A program made the translations under genes and the position numbers. From a virus, in IMG/VR virus record IMGVR_UViG_3300020185_000075, positions 1 through 47,577 of that record: a stretch of DNA of 47,577 bases. One strand, 5' to 3'. Below, piece by piece: positions 3,464 through 41,113 of this stretch (its first letter is position 1; every line of letters starts with the position of its first letter). The notes beneath the pieces were generated by a model. That model had not been told where the DNA came from. It searched no databases and saw only the letters and a list, made by a program, of their open reading frames with translations.

Positions 3464-4115
3464 TAACGAAATATATATAGATCAAAGCGGAGCAACGGCA
3501 AACATAAACTTAGAACAGCTAGGGTCATCAAATATTATAGGTGGCTTGCAATCAATTGCTGGCACCCTCACGGCTCTCGACCTAGACGGTCTTAACTTAA
3601 CTTTAGACATAAATCAAATAGGTAACACAAATAAATTCTTAGGCGATATATACGGTGACTCAGTAACTGGTTATTTTAATTTTGACGGTGATGGTAACAA
3701 CTTTACTATACAAGCAGATCCTACAAATACCTATGGTATAGATAACTCAGACTATAATGTTGATGTAACTGGTGGCTCTAATAACTTTACATTAGATACA
3801 GGCACATCATCTCTAGCATCTAGCTTAGACTTAGACTGGATTATTAATGGCGACAGCAACACTTTTGATTTTGATATAAACTATGATGGTGCTACTAACT
3901 ATGTAGATGTAGATGGAGATAGCAACACGGTTAACTTTACAGGAAGCGGATATGCAGGTGGATACTTCTATCTTGACCAAACAGGAAACAGCAGAACATT
4001 CAACATCATACAGTCATCAACTCTTGCTTCTGATTGGTTACAGATTAACTCTACTGGTTCTAACGGTACTGTTTGTGTCGTTCAGAACGATGGCGGAACA
4101 ACCACAAGCTGTTGA
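3405..4115 (+). CDS. Curlin-like repeat protein, probable CsgG export substrate
   Basis: The 236-residue product begins with a Sec signal peptide (MKNLKTLIAMMLVSPLYAA, cleavage expected before DNE). The mature part is rich in Asn, Gly, Asp, Ser and Thr. It carries degenerate curlin-type repeats: IDQSGATANINLEQLGSSN, LDINQIGNTNKF and YLDQTGNSRTFNI. Between them are several DGDGNNFTI / GGSNNFTLD / DGDSNTVNF units where Gln is replaced by Asp/Asn. It ends with two Cys (CVVQ and TTSC). CsgA/CsgB proteins carry five repeats of S-x5-Q-x-G-x2-N-x-A-x3-Q; here the N- and C-terminal repeats fit and the middle ones drift. ATG 3405 is used, inside csgG (59-base overlap). Position after csgG supports a secreted amyloid-like subunit or adhesin. 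Confidence 0.75.
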   Translation: MKNLKTLIAMMLVSPLYAADNEIYIDQSGATANINLEQLGSSNIIGGLQSIAGTLTALDLDGLNLTLDINQIGNTNKFLGDIYGDSVTGYFNFDGDGNNFTIQADPTNTYGIDNSDYNVDVTGGSNNFTLDTGTSSLASSLDLDWIINGDSNTFDFDINYDGATNYVDVDGDSNTVNFTGSGYAGGYFYLDQTGNSRTFNIIQSSTLASDWLQINSTGSNGTVCVVQNDGGTTTSC

Positions 4116-7510: not shown

Positions 7511-9193
7511 GTGGCTGGATTTAAACTAAATACATTCGGAGGGTTAAATAAAAAAATAGCCCCAAGACTATTGCCAGAGGATGTTGCTCAAGAAACCTCT
7601 AATACATTTTTGGACAGAGGTAGGCTTGAGGGACTACCGCAAGATCTCAACGACCCATCAGAGGCAGGCTCAACACATCCAGCTTCAAACATAAGTGCCG
7701 CAACAAGCACAATATTTAAAGCAACAGACAGTGCGTGGTTCACATTCAATGATGATGTAGATGTTATTAAGAGTCCAATAAGAGAGGACTCATTTAGCAG
7801 ATTTTACTTTACTGGATTTTCTGGAAGCTCTGGGTTCCCAAGAATGGTCGATGCTGCGAACGGCATATCAGGAAGTGGTCCTTACCCAGTTACTAGCTAT
7901 AGATTAGGCTTACCAACTCCAGGTGCATTTACTTCTGCTCCAAGCATTGACAATACAACTGCGGCTGATGGTGCTACAACAAGCTCAAGGGCTTATGTTT
8001 ATACAGAGATAACAACATTCGGAGAAGAGGGACCGCCAAGTCTCGTTACGGCTTCAGAGATTATTGATGCGGCTAATGGATCTACAGTTACTCTGTCACT
8101 ACCAGCTGGATCAAGTGGTGTTTATTCTATAGCGAAAAGAAGAATATATAGAACAGATTTAAATGGTGTATTTAGATTTGTTAAAGATGTTGCAGGTGTA
8201 TCATCGGGAACAACAACGGATGCTGTCTTGGATGCCTCTCTCGGGGAAGAAATAGAATCAGCAGACAACTTAGCACCGCCAGATGATGTCACATCAAATC
8301 ACCCAAACGGACCAATGTTTGGAATAACAACAATGCCTAATGGTATAACAGCAGGCTTTAGTGGTAACACTCTACTATTTAGTGAACCATTCTTACCACA
8401 CTCATATCCTTTAGCAAATCAGTTAACAACAGCAACTGACGTTGTGGGTATAACAACTATAGGATCAGGCTTGTTAGTTACAACAAAAGGCAAGCCAGTT
8501 ATAGTTTCTGGTACAGATCCAAGGGCTATGGCTTCTTTAGAGATAGACGCTAACCTACCAAATACAAATAAAAGATCTTTGGTAGATATGGGTGAGTATG
8601 CTATTTATGCATCACCAGACGGCTTGGTATTGGCAGCAAACTCAGATGTTCAATTAATAACCCAACAAATATTTACTCGTGATCAGTGGCAGGAATATTA
8701 TCCAAACAATATAGAGGCATATGAATACGAAGGAAAGTACATAGGCTTTACTTGGGATGGGTCTGACACATCAACAAAGAAAGGTTTCTTGTTTGATCCT
8801 AGGGGTCAGAAGAATGCGTTTATTGATTTAGACTTTTATGCACACGCTGGATTTAATGACAGGGAGAACGATGAGCTTTACCTTGTTATTGGGGGAGTAC
8901 TTAAGAAGTTTGCTAGATCAACAAGCACAAGATCTTACTCTTGGAAATCAAGAGAGTTTTATTCAAACAAGCCAATATCTCCAGGCGTAGCAAAAATAAG
9001 TGCTGAGTCCTACAGCGATCTTACCTTTAAGTTATACGCAGATGGATCTCTTAAGCATACTCAGGTGGTCACTAATAATAATATCTTTAGATTACCTGGA
9101 GGTTATCAGGCTAAATCATTTTACATAATCATTGAGGGTACAGATGCCGTCAATGAGGTTTGTGTATATGAAAGCCCTAGGGAGATAACTTAA
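7511..9193 (+). CDS. Phage tail/stabilisation structural protein, 560 aa
   Basis: The gene starts at GTG 7511, three bases after the holin-like stop. The N-terminus (FKLNTFGGLNKKIAPRLLP) and the repeated beta-rich blocks suggest a beta-propeller-like virion protein, similar in general style to podovirus tail nozzle or stabilisation proteins. A segment around residues 155-250 (SRAYVYTEITTFGEEGPPS, later IAKRRIYRT) is a fibronectin-like module common in phage tail proteins. It sits directly before the tail-tip gene. I cannot assign it to a named T7 or P22 protein with confidence; a virion role is well supported by context. Confidence 0.75.
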   Translation: MAGFKLNTFGGLNKKIAPRLLPEDVAQETSNTFLDRGRLEGLPQDLNDPSEAGSTHPASNISAATSTIFKATDSAWFTFNDDVDVIKSPIREDSFSRFYFTGFSGSSGFPRMVDAANGISGSGPYPVTSYRLGLPTPGAFTSAPSIDNTTAADGATTSSRAYVYTEITTFGEEGPPSLVTASEIIDAANGSTVTLSLPAGSSGVYSIAKRRIYRTDLNGVFRFVKDVAGVSSGTTTDAVLDASLGEEIESADNLAPPDDVTSNHPNGPMFGITTMPNGITAGFSGNTLLFSEPFLPHSYPLANQLTTATDVVGITTIGSGLLVTTKGKPVIVSGTDPRAMASLEIDANLPNTNKRSLVDMGEYAIYASPDGLVLAANSDVQLITQQIFTRDQWQEYYPNNIEAYEYEGKYIGFTWDGSDTSTKKGFLFDPRGQKNAFIDLDFYAHAGFNDRENDELYLVIGGVLKKFARSTSTRSYSWKSREFYSNKPISPGVAKISAESYSDLTFKLYADGSLKHTQVVTNNNIFRLPGGYQAKSFYIIIEGTDAVNEVCVYESPREIT

Positions 9194-11622
9194 TGGGTAA
9201 GCCAAAAGGCACATTCTCAGTACCAAGAAGTTTTGACTCTGAGCAGAAAAGATTTGCTCAACTGCTTAACGAATCTGTGGCTGTTCTCAAAGGAGAGCTT
9301 GGAGATCCTTTAGATGCTGCTGTAACTTATAATGATTTAATAAACTCTGGACTGGCAAAGAGAGATCTTAGAATCGGTAGTAATGGTTTTATTGGTGGGG
9401 GTGGCGTTGGTATTATTCCTGGCGATGGACCTGTATTAGATATACCACCAGCACCAACTGGGGTTCAGGCAAACGGAGCATTTCAAAATATACTTATTCA
9501 ATGGGACAAGCCAACATTTCTTGGATTCTCATATGCTGAGGTATGGGCGGCAACATCTAACACCTTTGCAGACAGAGTTCTAGTTGGAACATCTACAGCG
9601 TCTTTATTTTCACATCAAGTTGGTAACGGACAAACTCGATATTATTGGATTAGGTTCGTAAATACACAGGATGTGGCAGGACCGTTTAACTCAACAACAG
9701 GAATAGGTGATAGCACTGTTATTGATATTGGTGCACAGATGGCTCTGCTATCAGAAGAGCTGCAAAACCTTCCTGGATATACAGCACTAACAACCTTGAT
9801 TACTAATGCAGATGTGGCAAACGCTGCCGCCGCAGCCACCGCAAATACAGCAGCAAGAGTTATAAGATCAACGTCCGCACCAACAACAAGAGCTGATGGA
9901 ACCGCCCTGGTGCAAAACGATGTATGGATTGACACAGACGATAATAATCAGATGTATATAAGAAATGCTTCTAATAATGGATGGGAAGAGGCACGAGACG
10001 GCACCTTGGTAAATTTAGTAAACAGTATTAATACTCAGCAAGGCACCAATACCACAAATATAGCCTCTGCAACGAGTGATATTATTACCCTCACGAGTGA
10101 AAACTCTAGTAGGGCTTCTGAAATAACAACACTAGAAAGCACAATTAATGATTCATCAACAGGACTAACAGCTGCTCATTCAGCCATATCAACAGAAGCA
10201 ACAACAAGAGCATCAGCAGACACAGCTTTAGCTACCGACATAACCAACTTGACCTCTACAGTTGGAACAAATACCTCTGCCATATCTACAGAAGCAACAA
10301 CCAGAGCATCAGCAGACACAGCTTTAGCAACCGACATAACCAACCTAACGTCAACAGTTGGATCCAATACATCAGATATTGCAACCGAGCAAACCACAAG
10401 AGCCAATGCGGATACGGCACTTGCAACAGATATAACAAATCTAACATCCACGGTAAATTCAAATACTTCTGCAATATCTACAGAACAAACAACAAGAGCT
10501 AATGCAGACACCGCACTAGCCACTGACATAACCAACTTAACTAGTACTGTTAACGGAAACACATCTGCCATATCTACAGAAGCTACAACAAGGGCTAATG
10601 CAGATACAGCTAACGCCACGGCTATAAGTAACCTTAGCTCAACAGTTGGAACGACCAATGCCAACGTATCTACATTACAAACATCTGTATCTAACCTAGA
10701 AGGTGATGCTGATGCAATGTTTGTTATACAGGTTGCCACTGAATCTGATGGTAGTAAGTCAGCAGCAGGTATGGTTATTGGATCTAATGCAAGTAGCGGT
10801 AGTGGTGCACAGTCATATGTGCAGTTTCAGGCTGATAAGTTTGCAATATGGAGTGGATCTACAAACGTAGCCCCATTCATTGTTAACAGTGGAACTGTTT
10901 TCATAAAAGATGCCATGATTGAAAACGGTGCTATAACAAATGCAAAAATACAAGACGCAACCATAGATAATGCGAAGATAACTGCTACATTAGACGCTGC
11001 AAAAATAACAGCTGGAACCCTGTCCGCAGATAGACTAGATGCCTCTGTCATACTTTCAACAGACTTGGCAACAAACACATCTACTTCTATACACGGTGGT
11101 AATATAATTACCAATACTTTAAATGCAGACAAAATAGTAACAAACTCTATTACTGGTACACAGATAAATGTTGATACTCTTAATGTAAAAAGTTTTGATA
11201 ATGTGAGCTCAACCATAGTCAGTCATGTAACGGCAGGTACTAAATTTCGATTAGCCAGGGATGGTCAAACATATATACAAAGAACGGGAACATATACAGG
11301 AAGCAATGCCTCATTCGTTCCAGTAACAATTACACAGGTAAGAAACAACGCAGGTTATGTTGCTATCTTTTCAGGTGTTTTGGGTAACGTAAGTGGTGGT
11401 AGAGTTCAGTATTCATTAAATAACTCTACTTGGGTTAATGCAAGTGGTAATACTAATATTTATTGGAATGCAGGAACTTATAGAGGTTATACCTATGTCT
11501 ATACGGGAGAGATAACCACGCTATCTGCTTCACAGTCTACAGTCTACTGGAGAGTATATTTCTCTGGAAGTTATAACCACACACAGCTTTCACTTAATGT
11601 AATGATGGATAACACAAGATAA
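9193..11622 (+). CDS. Tail-tip / fibre protein with fibronectin-like and gpJ-type domains and 32-residue repeats
   Basis: The 809-residue protein overlaps the previous stop by one base. Order of parts: a short N-terminal region, a Gly-rich linker (GFIGGGGVGI), and a fibronectin type III-like domain (about 90-175, PPAPTGVQANGAFQNILIQW). Then comes a small domain often seen in tail-tip proteins (TSAPTTRADGTALVQNDVWI), followed by five 32-residue coiled-coil repeats (about 332-491). Next is a segment like the C-terminal part of lambda J-type proteins (VQFQADKFAIWSG, then ENGAITNAKIQDATIDNAKI), and finally a beta-rich head. This is a trimeric fibre or central tip. The host-binding part is likely the last 200 residues. 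Confidence 0.82.
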   Translation: MGKPKGTFSVPRSFDSEQKRFAQLLNESVAVLKGELGDPLDAAVTYNDLINSGLAKRDLRIGSNGFIGGGGVGIIPGDGPVLDIPPAPTGVQANGAFQNILIQWDKPTFLGFSYAEVWAATSNTFADRVLVGTSTASLFSHQVGNGQTRYYWIRFVNTQDVAGPFNSTTGIGDSTVIDIGAQMALLSEELQNLPGYTALTTLITNADVANAAAAATANTAARVIRSTSAPTTRADGTALVQNDVWIDTDDNNQMYIRNASNNGWEEARDGTLVNLVNSINTQQGTNTTNIASATSDIITLTSENSSRASEITTLESTINDSSTGLTAAHSAISTEATTRASADTALATDITNLTSTVGTNTSAISTEATTRASADTALATDITNLTSTVGSNTSDIATEQTTRANADTALATDITNLTSTVNSNTSAISTEQTTRANADTALATDITNLTSTVNGNTSAISTEATTRANADTANATAISNLSSTVGTTNANVSTLQTSVSNLEGDADAMFVIQVATESDGSKSAAGMVIGSNASSGSGAQSYVQFQADKFAIWSGSTNVAPFIVNSGTVFIKDAMIENGAITNAKIQDATIDNAKITATLDAAKITAGTLSADRLDASVILSTDLATNTSTSIHGGNIITNTLNADKIVTNSITGTQINVDTLNVKSFDNVSSTIVSHVTAGTKFRLARDGQTYIQRTGTYTGSNASFVPVTITQVRNNAGYVAIFSGVLGNVSGGRVQYSLNNSTWVNASGNTNIYWNAGTYRGYTYVYTGEITTLSASQSTVYWRVYFSGSYNHTQLSLNVMMDNTR
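10186..10665 (+). repeat. Five tandem 96-base repeats inside the tail-tip gene
   Basis: Five in-frame units of 96 bases encode 32-residue repeats beginning ISTEATTRASADTALATDIT; later units swap to TEQTTRANAD and the last is more diverged. Each unit has a heptad-like pattern with conserved Thr, Ala and Leu, expected to form a trimeric coiled-coil shaft. DNA identity between units is high enough to allow length change by recombination. A long open frame on the opposite strand here is only a by-product of this repeat. Confidence 0.9.
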
Positions 11623-32255: not shown

Positions 32256-32285
32256 AAAGCGGAGTAAGGACCCCGCTTTATTTTT
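32256..32285. terminator. Bidirectional intrinsic terminator between converging operons
   Basis: Stem AAAGCGG (32256-32262) pairs with CCGCTTT (32273-32279) around a 10-base loop, with a T-run after it on the plus strand (32281-32285) and an A-run before it that becomes a U-run on the minus strand. It sits between the plus replication operon and the minus early operon, whose last gene ends at 32293. Confidence 0.85.
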
Positions 32286-32292
32286 GTTCGAT

Positions 32293-32439
32293 CTATTTTT
32301 TCTTTCTGTGTTCCTCCTCGTAAGTAGTAAACCTTTTCTTACATCTCAGGCATTCCCTTCGTCTTTTGATGATCTCTCCGTCAATGATCTTACGGACATC
32401 AACAACCCTTGATCCTGATCCACATTCTGAACAAGTCAT
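32293..32439 (-). CDS. NrdR-like zinc-ribbon protein without ATP-cone, 48 aa
   Basis: The sequence [20 protein letters not shown] followed by [19 protein letters not shown] is the N-terminal zinc ribbon of NrdR, the bacterial repressor of ribonucleotide reductase genes. All four zinc Cys are present (3, 6, 30, 33), as are the RRRECLxCxKRFTTYE residues that contact DNA. The ATP-cone domain (about 100 residues in NrdR) is absent. It may compete for NrdR boxes on host DNA. Last gene of the minus operon, overlapping its upstream neighbour by 4 bases. Confidence 0.78.
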
Positions 32440-32675
32440 AATCCCATCCTTTTATAATCTTTTTGTTGTTCCTCGTATAATTCTTTCCACATTCTACCAA
32501 CTAATTCTTGCAAATTTTGCTGTTGTTTTATGTGTGATCTGCGAAGTGCAACATTGGTTAATTTTTTCTCCCATTCGTTTTTTTCCATAAGACCAGATTC
32601 AAAAAAAGAATGAATTTGTTTTATTTCTTTTTGATCCTCGGGGTGTGAAAGCCCATCTATAAATGAAAGTTTCAT
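32436..32675 (-). CDS. Hypothetical charged helical protein, 79 aa
   Basis: ATG 32675 ([20 protein letters not shown]) is preferred over an upstream start, because the ribosome binding site GGAGGTGG lies just before it in the end of the previous gene. The product is helical with many Lys, Glu and Gln. It overlaps both neighbours. No family recognised. Confidence 0.62.
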
Positions 32676-33932: not shown

Positions 33933-34112
33933 TTACACCTCTCTTTTTAATGCAACCCACTCAAACTTGTAACCAAGCTTCTTGAGAAGATTTAGATCAA
34001 GATCAGAAAAGGTCTTGGTTCCCTTGAAAGATGCAAGCATCTTGCCTTGGATACAAGATGGATAAACCAACTCATTTCCAAATACGTTTTTTATTATCAG
34101 TTCTATTGTCAT
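33933..34112 (-). CDS. Hypothetical protein after ribozyme 1, 59 aa
   Basis: Starts at 34112 (MTIELIIKNVFGNELVYPSC) behind the ribosome binding site GGAGG that lies 21 bases downstream of the predicted hammerhead cleavage site at 34139/34140. The product is beta-rich at first, then helical with KLGYKFEWVALKREV. No family recognised. It is the first gene downstream of the last ribozyme. Confidence 0.65.
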   Translation of the reverse strand: MTIELIIKNVFGNELVYPSCIQGKMLASFKGTKTFSDLDLNLLKKLGYKFEWVALKREV

Positions 34113-34133
34113 ATTTCCTCCTACGGTTTGTTT

Positions 34134-34183
34134 GACTAAGACGCCTCACGGCGTTTCGCTCATTCAGAGCTCATCAGTTAGTC
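34134..34183 (-). ncRNA. Type I hammerhead ribozyme 1
   Basis: On the minus strand all invariant parts of a hammerhead occur in order. Stem I is GACTAA (34183-34178) pairing with TTAGTC (34139-34134). The CTGATGA core is at 34177-34171. Stem II is GCTC/GAGC with loop TGAAT. GAAA is at 34157-34154. Stem III is CGCC/GGCG with loop GTGA. The cleavage triplet GTC (34142-34140) is followed by the predicted cut between 34140 and 34139. Stem I is open, so this is a type I ribozyme. The G of the upstream gene's TAG stop is its first base. The downstream product starts UUAGUCAAAC and carries the next gene's ribosome binding site. Confidence 0.9.
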
Positions 34184-34671
34184 TATTCTCCATCAAAGTA
34201 AGCTGTCCAAGACCTCTCCAAGTTGAAGGTAAATGTATGAGTTTTGCCATTATTATATGTATCGCCTTGAGACATAAAAACTGAGTCAAAATAATTTCTT
34301 TGAGGAAAGTCATCCATCGCCTGACGCCCTAAAGCCCCCATGAATCCCTCAAACCTTTCAGCGTGCTCAGATGGAATCTCGCTTGTAAATCTAGCAGAAT
34401 ATATGTGCCTCACACAGTCATCTCCACGATTGATGTTTTGTGCTGTAAAGTTGGTCATGAAAGCCCAGTCAAGATCGACACCTCTTAGTCCAAGCTTGTT
34501 ATATGCAAATTCAAATACCTCATTATGAAACCACATAAGGATATTGTCATAGTCCTCCCATCCATCAAGTCCGCTTTTATAAAAAGCAGTTCGCCCCGCA
34601 TAATGCTTAGCAGTTGGATCAAGCGTTGTGCTGTTGTTTATTAGTTCTAGTTTTTTCGTTAATGTTGTCAT
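34183..34671 (-). CDS. Hypothetical early protein between ribozymes 2 and 1, 162 aa
   Basis: The true start is ATG 34671 (MTTLTKKLELINNSTTLDPT), behind CGTAGGAGGG in the ribozyme-processed leader. The longer open frame to 34743 runs through ribozyme 2 and is not real. The protein is alpha/beta with many aromatic residues (GWEDYDNILMWFHNEVFEF, then RSWTAYFDGE). No domain recognised. Its TAG stop is built into stem I of ribozyme 1. Third gene after the operon promoter. Confidence 0.75.
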   Translation of the reverse strand: MTTLTKKLELINNSTTLDPTAKHYAGRTAFYKSGLDGWEDYDNILMWFHNEVFEFAYNKLGLRGVDLDWAFMTNFTAQNINRGDDCVRHIYSARFTSEIPSEHAERFEGFMGALGRQAMDDFPQRNYFDSVFMSQGDTYNNGKTHTFTFNLERSWTAYFDGE

Positions 34672-34692
34672 ATTCCCTCCTACGGTTTGTTT

Positions 34693-34759
34693 GACTAAGA
34701 CCTCCTCGATTCGCGGGGAAAAGAGAAGGTTTCGACTATTCAAGTCTCATCAGTTAGCC
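34693..34759 (-). ncRNA. Type I hammerhead ribozyme 2
   Basis: Same plan as ribozyme 1 with different stems. Stem I GGCTAA (34759-34754) pairs with TTAGTC (34698-34693), including one G-U pair. CTGATGA is at 34753-34747. Stem II is GACT/AGTC with the same loop TGAAT: both sides of the stem have changed together compared with ribozymes 1 and 3. GAAA is at 34733-34730. Stem III is longer, ACCTTCTC with GAGGAGGT, around a 15-base loop. Cleavage falls after GTC, between 34699 and 34698. The first base is the G of the upstream TAG stop. Confidence 0.9.
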
Positions 34760-35178
34760 TATGAGTGATAGTACATATCCCAGCTACGAACTATGTCGTA
34801 TATGTTGTACTCAGAACCATTCCTGATAGCATCAGCAAGATCATTGAAGACCGCTGATCTATACTCATACCTGTCAGGCTTATTGATGGTGTAGCCCTTG
34901 TCCATGAAGTAGGCAAAGGGTTCGATGAGCCCATAATCCTTGGACTGCTCTTTAGTGATCCATTTAGCCATGTCTTCCGCCTGATCATGGAATGATCTTT
35001 TGAGCTCAACATATTTTAAGAATCCCTCATGATTGATTAAGTACAATTCATCCTTGCCAGTTAAATCAGCTATTAAAGGCTTGTCAGTTTTATCAGCGGC
35101 ACCCATAATCTTAGTAGCAACAGCCAGTTCTTTTTCCCAAGTTACTTGAGCATCAGTTTTAGTATTTAGTTTTGTCAT
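34759..35178 (-). CDS. Hypothetical early protein between ribozymes 3 and 2, 139 aa
   Basis: Starts at ATG 35178 (MTKLNTKTDAQVTWEKELAV) with the ribosome binding site TTAGGAGG 20 bases after the ribozyme 3 cut. The protein is mostly helical with a short beta region (GKDELYLINHEGFLKYVELK) and a Tyr-rich C-terminus (EYNIYDIVRSWDMYYHS). No known family. Its TAG stop runs into stem I of ribozyme 2. Second gene of the operon. Confidence 0.75.
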   Translation of the reverse strand: MTKLNTKTDAQVTWEKELAVATKIMGAADKTDKPLIADLTGKDELYLINHEGFLKYVELKRSFHDQAEDMAKWITKEQSKDYGLIEPFAYFMDKGYTINKPDRYEYRSAVFNDLADAIRNGSEYNIYDIVRSWDMYYHS

Positions 35179-35202
35179 ATTTACCTCCTAAGTAATTGTT
35201 TT

Positions 35203-35256
35203 GACTAAGACTGCCATTGCTGGCAGTTTCGCTCATTGAGAGCTCATCAGTTAGCC
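35203..35256 (-). ncRNA. Type I hammerhead ribozyme 3
   Basis: Stem I GGCTAA (35256-35251) pairs with TTAGTC (35208-35203). The core CTGATGA is at 35250-35244. Stem II is GCTC/GAGC with loop TCAAT. GAAA is at 35230-35227. Stem III ACTGCC pairs with GGCAGT around a six-base loop. Cleavage follows GTC, between 35209 and 35208. The TAA stop of the upstream gene (35253-35251) forms the last three bases of the 5' strand of stem I, so the ribosome must clear this stem before it folds. Confidence 0.9.
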
Positions 35257-35664
35257 TGCTTTGCGTATCACCTCCTCGTGTAACACTCTTGGGTTATTAA
35301 ACTTCTTGAAGCCATAACTGTCGCAGAAATAAAAGTTACCTAGATCATCTTCAACAATGTCACCAACGCTCAAGCTGTGATAGTTTGCGTGCTTCACAAT
35401 TGATGATGCTGTATCATCAGAGTCAGAGTTAAGAGCGATAAAAACATCCTCAATATTATTTCCCTCGATCTTTACATCACAAACATGATTGTAATATTTG
35501 AAATAGGAATCACTCCATGCCTCAAAACCCAAGATCATTGTGTCAAGATGTGCTTTGTACTCAGGGTACTTCTTGCCAGCAGAAGTATGGCTCTCACCAT
35601 CTGTATTAACAAAGTCATAGACCTCGTCGCTTACTGTTATTTGATATACGTTAAATGTTGTCAT
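35251..35664 (-). CDS. YodL-like early protein, first gene of the ribozyme operon, 137 aa
   Basis: Starts at ATG 35664 (MTTFNVYQITVSDEVYDFVN) after AAAGGAGG; the upstream extension to 35706 crosses the promoter's transcript start and is not used. The C-terminal half has the motif YHSLSVGDIVEDDLGNFYFC followed by DSYGFKKF, close to the S-L-S-V-x-D-x-V...Y-x-C-D-S-x-G-F pattern of YodL-like domains, which are found on plasmids and phages near anti-restriction proteins. Being first behind a strong promoter, it should be made early and in quantity. An anti-host-defence role is inference. Confidence 0.75.
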   Translation of the reverse strand: MTTFNVYQITVSDEVYDFVNTDGESHTSAGKKYPEYKAHLDTMILGFEAWSDSYFKYYNHVCDVKIEGNNIEDVFIALNSDSDDTASSIVKHANYHSLSVGDIVEDDLGNFYFCDSYGFKKFNNPRVLHEEVIRKAG

Positions 35665-35704: not shown

Positions 35705-35734
35705 ATATTAATGCCATACTATATGTAGTGTCAA
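35705..35734 (-). promoter_or_regulatory. Strong sigma70-type promoter of the ribozyme operon
   Basis: On the minus strand a consensus -35 TTGACA (35734-35729) is followed after 18 bases by TAATAT (35710-35705). Transcription would start near 35698. The leader (with ACAAACAAAC and then AAAGGAGG) resembles the leaders made by ribozyme cleavage downstream (AAACAAACCGTAGGAGG). Confidence 0.75.
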
Positions 35735-39103: not shown

Positions 39104-41113
39104 ATGAAGATAAAAAACGAACTAGAACCAGGGGGGATTTCAGCAGCGGTTGATACAGATGATCAAGAGCAGACTGAATTAAATTCCCTAGGACAAATAC
39201 TACAATCCAAATACACGGAGTACAAAGATGCCCGTGATGATATAGAGGATGATTGGATAGAAGACTTGCGAGCATTCATGGGTCAATACGATCCTGATGT
39301 TCTTGCGAAAATCCAATCCAAGGGAGACAGATCCCAAGTCTATGTTGGCTTAACAAGAACCAAGGTACTTGCAGCCTTCTCAAGAATGACTGATCTATTA
39401 TTTCAACCAGGTCAAAAATTCTTTTCAATAGAAGCAACACCTATAACCAAACAACCCTTTGTAGAAAAAGAACTCACCGAGAAAGCCGCGTTAGAAATTA
39501 TGCAGGCTGCTGAGGTTGTAGACCCAGGACTTGTTGATGATTTAATCCAAGCAAGACTTAATGAATTAGAAACAGAGCTTGCAGAGGAAACAGAAAGAAG
39601 AGTAGAGAACATGGAAGAGGCAATTCTTGACCAAGCCATCGAAGGAAACCTAGAGGGTAAGATGAAGGATGCAATCATGGAGCAGGTTATCTTTGGTACT
39701 GGTGCAATGAAGGCTGGTACGCTTAGAGTTGAGAAAGACCATAAGTGGGTTAAGACAGAAGAAGGTTTCGCGTTAGTATACGAAGAAAGCCCAATGCCCG
39801 AAATGGAGGCTGTGTCTATATTTGATTTGTACCCAGATCCTTTCGCGACATCCATGGACGATATGCGAGACATATTCAGAAGACATATTATATCCCGACA
39901 GGAGTTCGTAGACCTTAAAGACTTTCCAGGTTTCAACAAGGACATGATTGAGGAATGCCTTGACCATTATCCAGAAGGAAACCATGACGAAGAGCAACAC
40001 GAGAAAGACAGAAGAGACATAGCTAATGTTAACGATAGATCCACAGAAACAAACAAGTTTGAAATTACAGAGTTCTGGGGTTCATTAAACGGTCATGATC
40101 TTGAAGAGGTAGGTATAGAGTTTGAAGGCGATGCCGATCTATCCCAAGAGTACAGTGCTAATGTATGGACTGTAGGCGGTAAGGTAATTAAAGCACAACT
40201 CAACCCGCTTCCAGGCGGTGTCATACCTTACTTCATTTTCCCGTATGAAAAGAACCCACATGCGTTCTGGGGTACAGGCGTACCTAGAATGATGCGTGAT
40301 TCGCAGACTACAATGAATGCGGCTACAAGAATATACTTAGATAACGTAGCTCTATCATCGGGTCCTATGGTTGAAGTTAATACTGACATCATGGCTTCAG
40401 GTGAAGATCCAACAGATCTATATCCTTGGAGGGTATTCTTGAGAGAGGGTGGGGATGGGAATCAGCCCATGGTTAGATTCTATCAACCACAGTCCAATTC
40501 TCCAGCACTGGTATCAGTAATTGAATTATTCAGAAGGTTCGCGGATGAAACCACCGCGTTACCATCATACACACACGGACAGACACAGAGCTCTTTAAAT
40601 AGAACTGCCACAGGTATATCTATATTAATGAGTAATGCAAACATTGTTCTGAAGTCCGTTATTAAAAACATTGACGACTATTTAACCAAACCAATGATTC
40701 GATCATTGTATGACTGGAACATGACTTGGAATGATAACGAGTTAGTCAAGTCAGACATGAGAGTTGTTGCAAAAGGATCCACTGCATTAATACAAAAAGA
40801 AGTACAGTCACAAAGACTACTACAGTTCTTATCACTAATTAATAATCCAATGGACGCTAATATGATTAAGAGAGATAAACTCTTAACAGATATAGCTAAG
40901 TCATTAGATATTGATCCAGAAGAAGTAATTAAAAATGAAAAGGAGTTAATGGATGAGCAAGCACTACAACAAGCTATCCTTGCCAGCCAGCAAGGCGGTC
41001 AGGCAAATCAAATCCCAAATGCCGAAGGAGTGGGCGGACCTGATGTTGGAAATGGAACGCCTCCGCCAAATGGAGAGGGACCAGTTGGAAATAACGGAGG
41101 ACTACCGCTTTAG
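39104..41113 (+). CDS. Portal protein, 669 aa
   Basis: Starts right after terL. The sequence shows the portal pattern: an N-terminal helical part (YTEYKDARDDIEDDWIEDLR), the wing region (DRSQVYVGLTRTKVLAAFSR), a long Glu-rich crown/stem portion and a central FWGTGVPRMMRDSQTTMNAA motif. Near the end is the helix with SLNRTATGISILMSNANIVL, typical of podovirus portals. The C-terminus is Gln/Gly/Pro/Asn-rich (GNGTPPPNGEGPVGNNGG) and coincides with an overlapping gene in another frame. Length is normal for a P22-like/HTVC-type portal. Confidence 0.88.
   Translation: MKIKNELEPGGISAAVDTDDQEQTELNSLGQILQSKYTEYKDARDDIEDDWIEDLRAFMGQYDPDVLAKIQSKGDRSQVYVGLTRTKVLAAFSRMTDLLFQPGQKFFSIEATPITKQPFVEKELTEKAALEIMQAAEVVDPGLVDDLIQARLNELETELAEETERRVENMEEAILDQAIEGNLEGKMKDAIMEQVIFGTGAMKAGTLRVEKDHKWVKTEEGFALVYEESPMPEMEAVSIFDLYPDPFATSMDDMRDIFRRHIISRQEFVDLKDFPGFNKDMIEECLDHYPEGNHDEEQHEKDRRDIANVNDRSTETNKFEITEFWGSLNGHDLEEVGIEFEGDADLSQEYSANVWTVGGKVIKAQLNPLPGGVIPYFIFPYEKNPHAFWGTGVPRMMRDSQTTMNAATRIYLDNVALSSGPMVEVNTDIMASGEDPTDLYPWRVFLREGGDGNQPMVRFYQPQSNSPALVSVIELFRRFADETTALPSYTHGQTQSSLNRTATGISILMSNANIVLKSVIKNIDDYLTKPMIRSLYDWNMTWNDNELVKSDMRVVAKGSTALIQKEVQSQRLLQFLSLINNPMDANMIKRDKLLTDIAKSLDIDPEEVIKNEKELMDEQALQQAILASQQGGQANQIPNAEGVGGPDVGNGTPPPNGEGPVGNNGGLPL

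Follow-up and report, generated by a model that had tools for sequence, protein, structure and literature searches.

What do three hammerhead-like RNA elements, set one behind another at consecutive gene junctions, do in a phage operon? The question is posed by the virus record IMGVR_UViG_3300020185_000075, of which we analysed positions 1 to 47,577 (the window, 47,577 nucleotides). A leftward operon runs here from about 35705 to 32256. The initial annotation had placed three minus-strand hammerheads in it, one after each of its first three genes; the positions given were exact, each element has a perfect core, and the three do follow genes A, B and C. Read from right to left, the region contains:

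35705-35734, minus strand: promoter-like site upstream of gene A (TTGACA, 18 nt, TAATAT; 10/12)
35251-35664, minus strand: gene A, first gene of the operon, 137 aa, YodL-like (PF14191, 25.7 bits, cut-off 24)
35203-35256, minus strand: predicted hammerhead ribozyme 1, type I, gene A/gene B junction (model score 65.3 bits, E = 2e-14)
34759-35178, minus strand: gene B, 139 aa, belonging to no known family and starting 30 nt downstream of predicted cut 1
34693-34759, minus strand: predicted hammerhead ribozyme 2, type I with a long stem III, gene B/gene C junction (59.8 bits, E = 5.2e-13)
34183-34671, minus strand: gene C, 162 aa, belonging to no known family and starting 27 nt downstream of predicted cut 2
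34134-34183, minus strand: predicted hammerhead ribozyme 3, type I, gene C/gene D junction (63.8 bits, E = 4.9e-14)
34113-34139, minus strand: predicted 5' leader after cut 3, UUAGUCAAACAAACCGUAGGAGGAAAU, nearly unstructured
33933-34112, minus strand: gene D, 59 aa, belonging to no known family and starting 27 nt downstream of predicted cut 3
32256-32279, minus strand: terminator-like hairpin at the operon end, 10 bp followed by a U-rich tail

Each of the A/B, B/C and C/D junctions is largely taken up by one predicted type I hammerhead. The full set of parts that had been claimed for them was borne out, with core, stems and GUC verified and both folding and a covariance model in agreement: all three elements present, in order, stem I, CUGAUGA, stem II, GAAA, stem III and GUC at the cut site. 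Stem I has 6 bp (GGCUAA or GACUAA with UUAGUC), stem II has 4 bp and a 5-nt loop, and stem III has 7, 8 and 5 bp in the elements beginning at 35203, 34693 and 34134, respectively, with the A15.1-U16.1 pair counted. Thus, positions 35256-35203 read GGCUAA CUGAUGA GCUC UCAAU GAGC GAAA CUGCCA GCAA UGGCAG UC UUAGUC, and positions 34183-34134 read GACUAA CUGAUGA GCUC UGAAU GAGC GAAA CGCC GUGA GGCG UC UUAGUC. Cleavage is predicted between 35209 and 35208 in ribozyme 1, between 34699 and 34698 in ribozyme 2, and between 34140 and 34139 in ribozyme 3. All three carry the consensus core CUGANGA and GAAA in order, the A15.1-U16.1 pair with an NUH cleavage triplet (here GUC), and three helices round the core with G10.1-C11.1 and an open stem I; for each, the hammerhead secondary structure is also the energy minimum on folding. 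Judged by sequence and predicted fold, the three elements are type I hammerhead ribozymes, and no further hammerhead of type I, II or III was found in the whole window.

By chance, the window should contain the bare core pattern 0.12 times; it contains six overlapping matches, at three places. The full type I structure appeared in none of 60 dinucleotide shuffles of the window and nowhere in 8.2 Mb of shuffled phage genomes. The covariance-model check that the initial annotation had called for gave a divided answer. At gathering thresholds, Rfam 15 returned no match in the window, the elements lying below all gathering scores; the families RF02275 (HH9) and RF03152 (RAGATH-1 hammerhead) gave weak, sub-threshold matches at the right places, and these two families and RF00163 have the same core and topology as the window elements. 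Twenty-seven elements of other phages, including some of the window's clade but none of the window itself, were used to build a covariance model, which found exactly the three elements (59.8-65.3 bits, E 5e-13 to 2e-14) and nothing else. Because this purpose-built model finds all three, we judge the Rfam miss to be a limit of sensitivity. In 140 kb from seven element-rich related sources, only two elements passed at the RF00163 gathering level (in L047 and L092). With sub-threshold matches in place and few relatives passing, the Rfam thresholds are too high for this hammerhead branch, and standard annotation misses the elements because they fall below them.

A pattern search with the core, four stem I pairs and the first two stem III pairs fixed and stem II left free revealed a large family. 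At least 120 viral contigs carry elements; the matches listed number 162 and represent 122 unique elements. The same search through 257 billion bases of cellular genomes gave a single match, where about three would be expected by chance (our own arithmetic, assuming uniform base composition). That match, on a contig binned as Daejeonella (Bacteroidota), is a type I element at 3800-3856, with a type III element at 3599-3648, about 150 nt apart (L127). It scores 55.8 bits with the covariance model and, given this score and the neighbouring type III hammerhead, looks real.

Pairing in stems II and III, most of which the search pattern did not require, is far above that of shuffled partners: among the unique viral elements listed, the four bases on each side of stem II are fully paired in 79% versus 12%, and those of stem III in 80% versus 5%. 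Across 27 gap-free sequences, 99.5% of cells pair and both sides have changed in 8 of 16 pairs, with 100 compensatory cells as against 27.5 in shuffles and at most 26 in slid controls. Covariation of this kind in aligned sequences is the signature of selection on structure. A 6-bp stem I and a U-N-A-A-U loop II are typical of this hammerhead family; at the places where a tertiary contact between the periphery of stem I and loop II would form, loop II is mostly U-N-A-A-U and an A is frequent beside stem I.

Placement is equally regular. Where an upstream gene is recognisable, its stop codon starts between -13 and +11 of the core in 168 of 179 elements, and the next start codon follows the cut by a median of 28 nt; a Shine-Dalgarno match is present in 142 of 173 elements. 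The window follows the same geometry: the gene A stop codon UAA (35253-35251) forms the last three nucleotides of the 5' strand of stem I in ribozyme 1, and the final base of the UAG stop codons of genes B and C is the first base of stem I in ribozymes 2 and 3, respectively. Arrays reach up to ten elements; those of 10, 9 and 8 hammerheads (L047, L092 and L051) lie on one strand within about 8 kb, and each of the three includes one type III element.

The leaders predicted after cuts 1 and 2 are similar to that after cut 3, and these predicted post-cut leaders (UUAGUCAAACAAACCGUAGGAGG) look like the promoter-proximal leader that precedes gene A (UUUACAAACAAACAGCCAAAGGAGG); once cut, each gene would thus have the kind of 5' end that the first gene has. 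The freed leaders are predicted to have almost no structure, and their pairing with the start region was no stronger than in shuffles. The promoter-like site at 35705-35734 is weak by itself, such sites being no commoner in the window than in shuffles. Downstream of gene D, genes E to I carry no further ribozymes, and this 3' part of the operon is a run of short, overlapping or abutting genes. Among genes A to I, the only functional matches are YodL-like (A) and DUF7417 (F), and AlphaFold models are poor (mean pLDDT 49 for gene A and 44 for gene B). The last operon gene (32293-32440, minus strand) encodes a short CxxC zinc-ribbon protein that, by eye, resembles the N-terminal part of NrdR. Elsewhere in the window, a tyrosine integrase gene (PF00589, 22902-23723) suggests that the phage may be temperate.

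We then asked where such elements lie in cultured phages. BLAST with one element gave weak matches in unannotated gaps of two cultured pelagiphages, HTVC168P (L146, OR420735) and Eistla EXVC025P (L147, MT375521), in which the following hammerheads lie between early genes:

HTVC168P, 488-551: type I
HTVC168P, 1226-1287: type II
HTVC168P, 39714-39775: type III, directly preceding gene 1 when the two record ends are joined
Eistla EXVC025P, 8787-8845: type I
Eistla EXVC025P, 9264-9326: type II
Eistla EXVC025P, 10041-10104: type I

Further cultured phages were chosen by their RNA polymerase alone, not by ribozyme. HTVC109P, HTVC019P, HTVC142P, HTVC031P and HTVC021P have hammerheads before the polymerase gene or the first gene, and Roseobacter phage CRP-125 has one near the record end. 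In these records of cultured T7-like pelagiphages and a Roseobacter phage (L154, L155, L158, L159, L160 and L161), the hammerheads are unannotated; across the cultured pelagiphages, types I, II and III occur between early genes or before the first gene. No hammerhead was found in HTVC120P or HTVC200P, and none in the 50 kb examined of HTVC103P, which has gene F in common with the window.

The same distribution emerged from 80 viral contigs retrieved by their T7-like RNA polymerase, without use of ribozymes. We counted 132 hammerheads (81 type I, 25 type II and 26 type III; 88 unique sequences) in the 177 kb that precede the polymerase gene, against none in 193 kb of polymerase genes, none in 286 kb downstream and none antisense in 656 kb. 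At least one is present in 36 of the 40 contigs with more than 2 kb upstream, most often three. Relatives of the window retrieved by terminase (at least 76% identity, more than 4.5 kb upstream, n = 22) have hammerheads in 17 cases, all on the operon strand, and lack them in five. Across 48 terminase-group contigs, 43 upstream elements lie on the operon strand, with none on the other strand and none downstream. In T7-like SAR11 phages, the hammerhead device is thus confined to the early region, yet it is not universal. Nor are hammerheads essential, because HTVC103P, HTVC120P, HTVC200P, the five terminase relatives and one B/D junction (in L104) do without them. By the genes identified so far, the window phage is not T7-like; the T7-like relatives make early expression of its operon plausible by analogy.

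Within the window's clade, the genes around the ribozymes are reshuffled. Gene orders are A-B-C-D in the window, A-C-D in L032/L143, A-B-D in L148, x-C-B-D in L104/L128, C-B in L018, x-A-B-y in L110/L131 and x-B-D in L133, and a hammerhead sits at each of these shuffled junctions except B/D in L104. The part from D to I is largely collinear. Throughout the clade, a leader stays attached to the gene that follows it and a stop codon to the gene that it ends; the joins therefore fall inside the ribozyme. Identical stem III hairpins (for example, CGCCGUGAGGCG and CUCCCUACGGGGAG) precede different genes. One element, at 3908-3980 of L136, is chimeric, with two GAAAC-stem III hairpins in tandem, and is likely a scar of recombination, of the kind that an unequal join between two ribozymes would leave.

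In the T7 early transcript, RNase III sites lie at early gene junctions upstream of the RNA polymerase gene and leave hairpin 3' ends; RNase III cleavage needs no conserved catalytic core. Hammerhead cleavage leaves 5'-OH and 2',3'-cyclic phosphate ends. Against this background, we consider it probable that the three elements are functional type I hammerheads that let the mRNA of the leftward operon be processed at its gene junctions without any protein. This reading draws directly on structures, covariation, placement, strand bias and cassette shuffling, and from these we infer self-cleavage of the elements, the resulting RNA ends, an effect on stability or translation, and early timing in the window phage. 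The polycistronic RNA would fold, and each hammerhead would cut itself after GUC. Messages of genes A, B and C would then end in the stem II and stem III hairpins with a 2',3'-cyclic phosphate, and those of B, C and D onward would open on a 5'-OH, with a short A-rich leader spanning the 27-30 nt up to the start codon. Each gene would become a unit translated and decaying on its own, much as RNase III sites achieve for the T7 early transcript; the decoupling of stability or translation that the initial annotation proposed would follow in this way. With its own leader and cutting site, each unit would be interchangeable, making the genes exchangeable cassettes and the repeated ribozymes the sites at which recombination joins them. 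Stem I of the window elements is short and open, and no tertiary contact with it emerged, so cutting in vivo may be fast or slow.

The main rival is a regulated switch, in which upstream translation, or a ligand or protein, controls cleavage and turns the next gene on or off. A terminating ribosome would cover the core, so that cutting occurs only when ribosomes are sparse and not as constant processing. The stop codon indeed overlaps or abuts stem I in most elements, including all three in the window, although this may reflect only the compactness of the genomes. Varied stems and loops, together with three topologies at equal places, leave no constant domain for a ligand or protein to bind, and comparable arrays were cleaved in vitro without any factor (PMC3088659); we regard such a switch as unlikely. 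Another idea is that the elements are repeated DNA segments kept as recombination targets for cassette exchange, with ribozyme activity incidental. The varied cassette orders and sets with joins inside the ribozyme fit that idea, as does the chimeric element in L136, but a DNA target should conserve its letters, whereas here the stems change in compensatory fashion around a constant catalytic core. Types I, II and III, moreover, occupy equivalent places with little sequence order in common, and this explanation is accordingly quite improbable.

Tandem same-strand hammerheads about 0.5 kb apart also recall retrozymes, in which pairs of hammerheads excise what lies between them for ligation into a circular or otherwise stable RNA. 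In the phages, what lies between hammerheads is in each case a protein-coding gene that has a ribosome binding site of its own, the arrays are unequal in number and topology and often consist of a single element, and Perreault et al. sought spliced or circular products and saw none (PMC3088659), leaving excision of this kind very unlikely. Chance or non-functional resemblance could appeal to the missing match at the Rfam gathering level. Set against it are the empty shuffles of window and phage genomes, the perfect cores, the covariation and the covariance-model matches, and we give it almost no credence. mRNA processing by the ribozymes themselves thus stands as the best explanation, as initially suggested, with a layout that repeats across many phages, although the idea of such processing had already been proposed for prophages.

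With that precedent, the initial impression that no phage operon of this layout had been described is not supported. In 2011, Perreault et al. reported prophage genes that stand singly between clustered hammerheads, such as the triple array around ardA in Agrobacterium tumefaciens, and suggested that these process mRNA; tandem elements of this sort from phages were shown to cleave both in vitro and in E. coli (PMC3088659). Those clusters share with ours several same-strand hammerheads in a row, single phage genes between them and the same processing proposal. They reside in prophages of cellular genomes and have no constant genes, whereas the present elements are almost confined to virus contigs (at least 120 versus one cellular-genome contig) and, with the two sets compared by description, differ in keeping a constant stop-to-start geometry, in having shuffled cassettes and, among T7-like relatives, in lying only in the early region. 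In haloviruses HF1 and HF2, an early helicase gene is preceded at 13 nt by a hammerhead (PMC3088659). It too lies just before a start codon among the early genes of a tailed virus, but it stands alone, and its core is of an atypical, salt-dependent type. HDV-like theta ribozymes are also small self-cleaving ribozymes of tailed phages, encoded by gut phages, with another fold and a link to tRNA-based recoding, not to mRNA junctions (PMC10879173). Bacterial hammerheads are enriched near Mu-like phage genes and near other ribozymes, for reasons unknown (PMC10085705).

A further analogy, of function only, is to the RNase III sites of T7, whose job the elements of T7-like pelagiphages match in position and number. 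Both systems place one cutting site at each early junction upstream of the polymerase gene and yield hairpin 3' ends, and the hammerhead-bearing T7-like pelagiphages, as related phages (Autographiviridae), have theirs in the same place. In the phages described here, cleavage would be RNA-catalysed and protein-free and would yield a 5'-OH and a cyclic phosphate instead of the 5'-phosphate and 3'-OH of RNase III. In the T7 record, RNase III sites carry no annotation.

Phage hammerheads, their tandem layout and the processing idea are already known. As far as the literature searched shows, what is new is that the family is large and uncatalogued, that in T7-like phages it keeps to the early region, that stop codon, ribozyme and start codon stand in a fixed geometry, and that cassettes are shuffled. 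Open-licence PMC text, preprints aside, contained no report of hammerheads in pelagiphages or Autographiviridae, which is weak evidence of novelty. More tentatively, marine phages, including the abundant SAR11 phages, may commonly have a ribozyme-punctuated early operon that uses any of the three hammerhead topologies and keeps early genes as autonomous cassettes recombined inside ribozymes, a generalization we hold to be possible at somewhat less than even confidence. If true, phages would have an RNA-only equivalent of the T7 RNase III system and, with it, a general answer to the shuffling of genes in phage operons. Confirmation would mean that phages common in the ocean process their early messages with no protein nuclease involved, and would suggest how small early genes are exchanged. 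The role of phage and bacterial hammerheads has been a standing question since 2011, and their regular placement in cultured SAR11 phages (HTVC168P, Eistla EXVC025P, HTVC031P, HTVC109P and others) makes the phage role directly testable.

Two variants of the core recur among the relatives. An extra U between A9 and stem II (CUGAUGA-U-stem II) occurs in L012, L054, L069, L074, L087, L090, L097, L115 and L117, in elements that are otherwise hammerhead-like and placed as the others are. A mismatch at the usually conserved pair 10.1-11.1, with A at 11.1, is found in L009, L011, L029, L030, L034, L049, L066 and L075.
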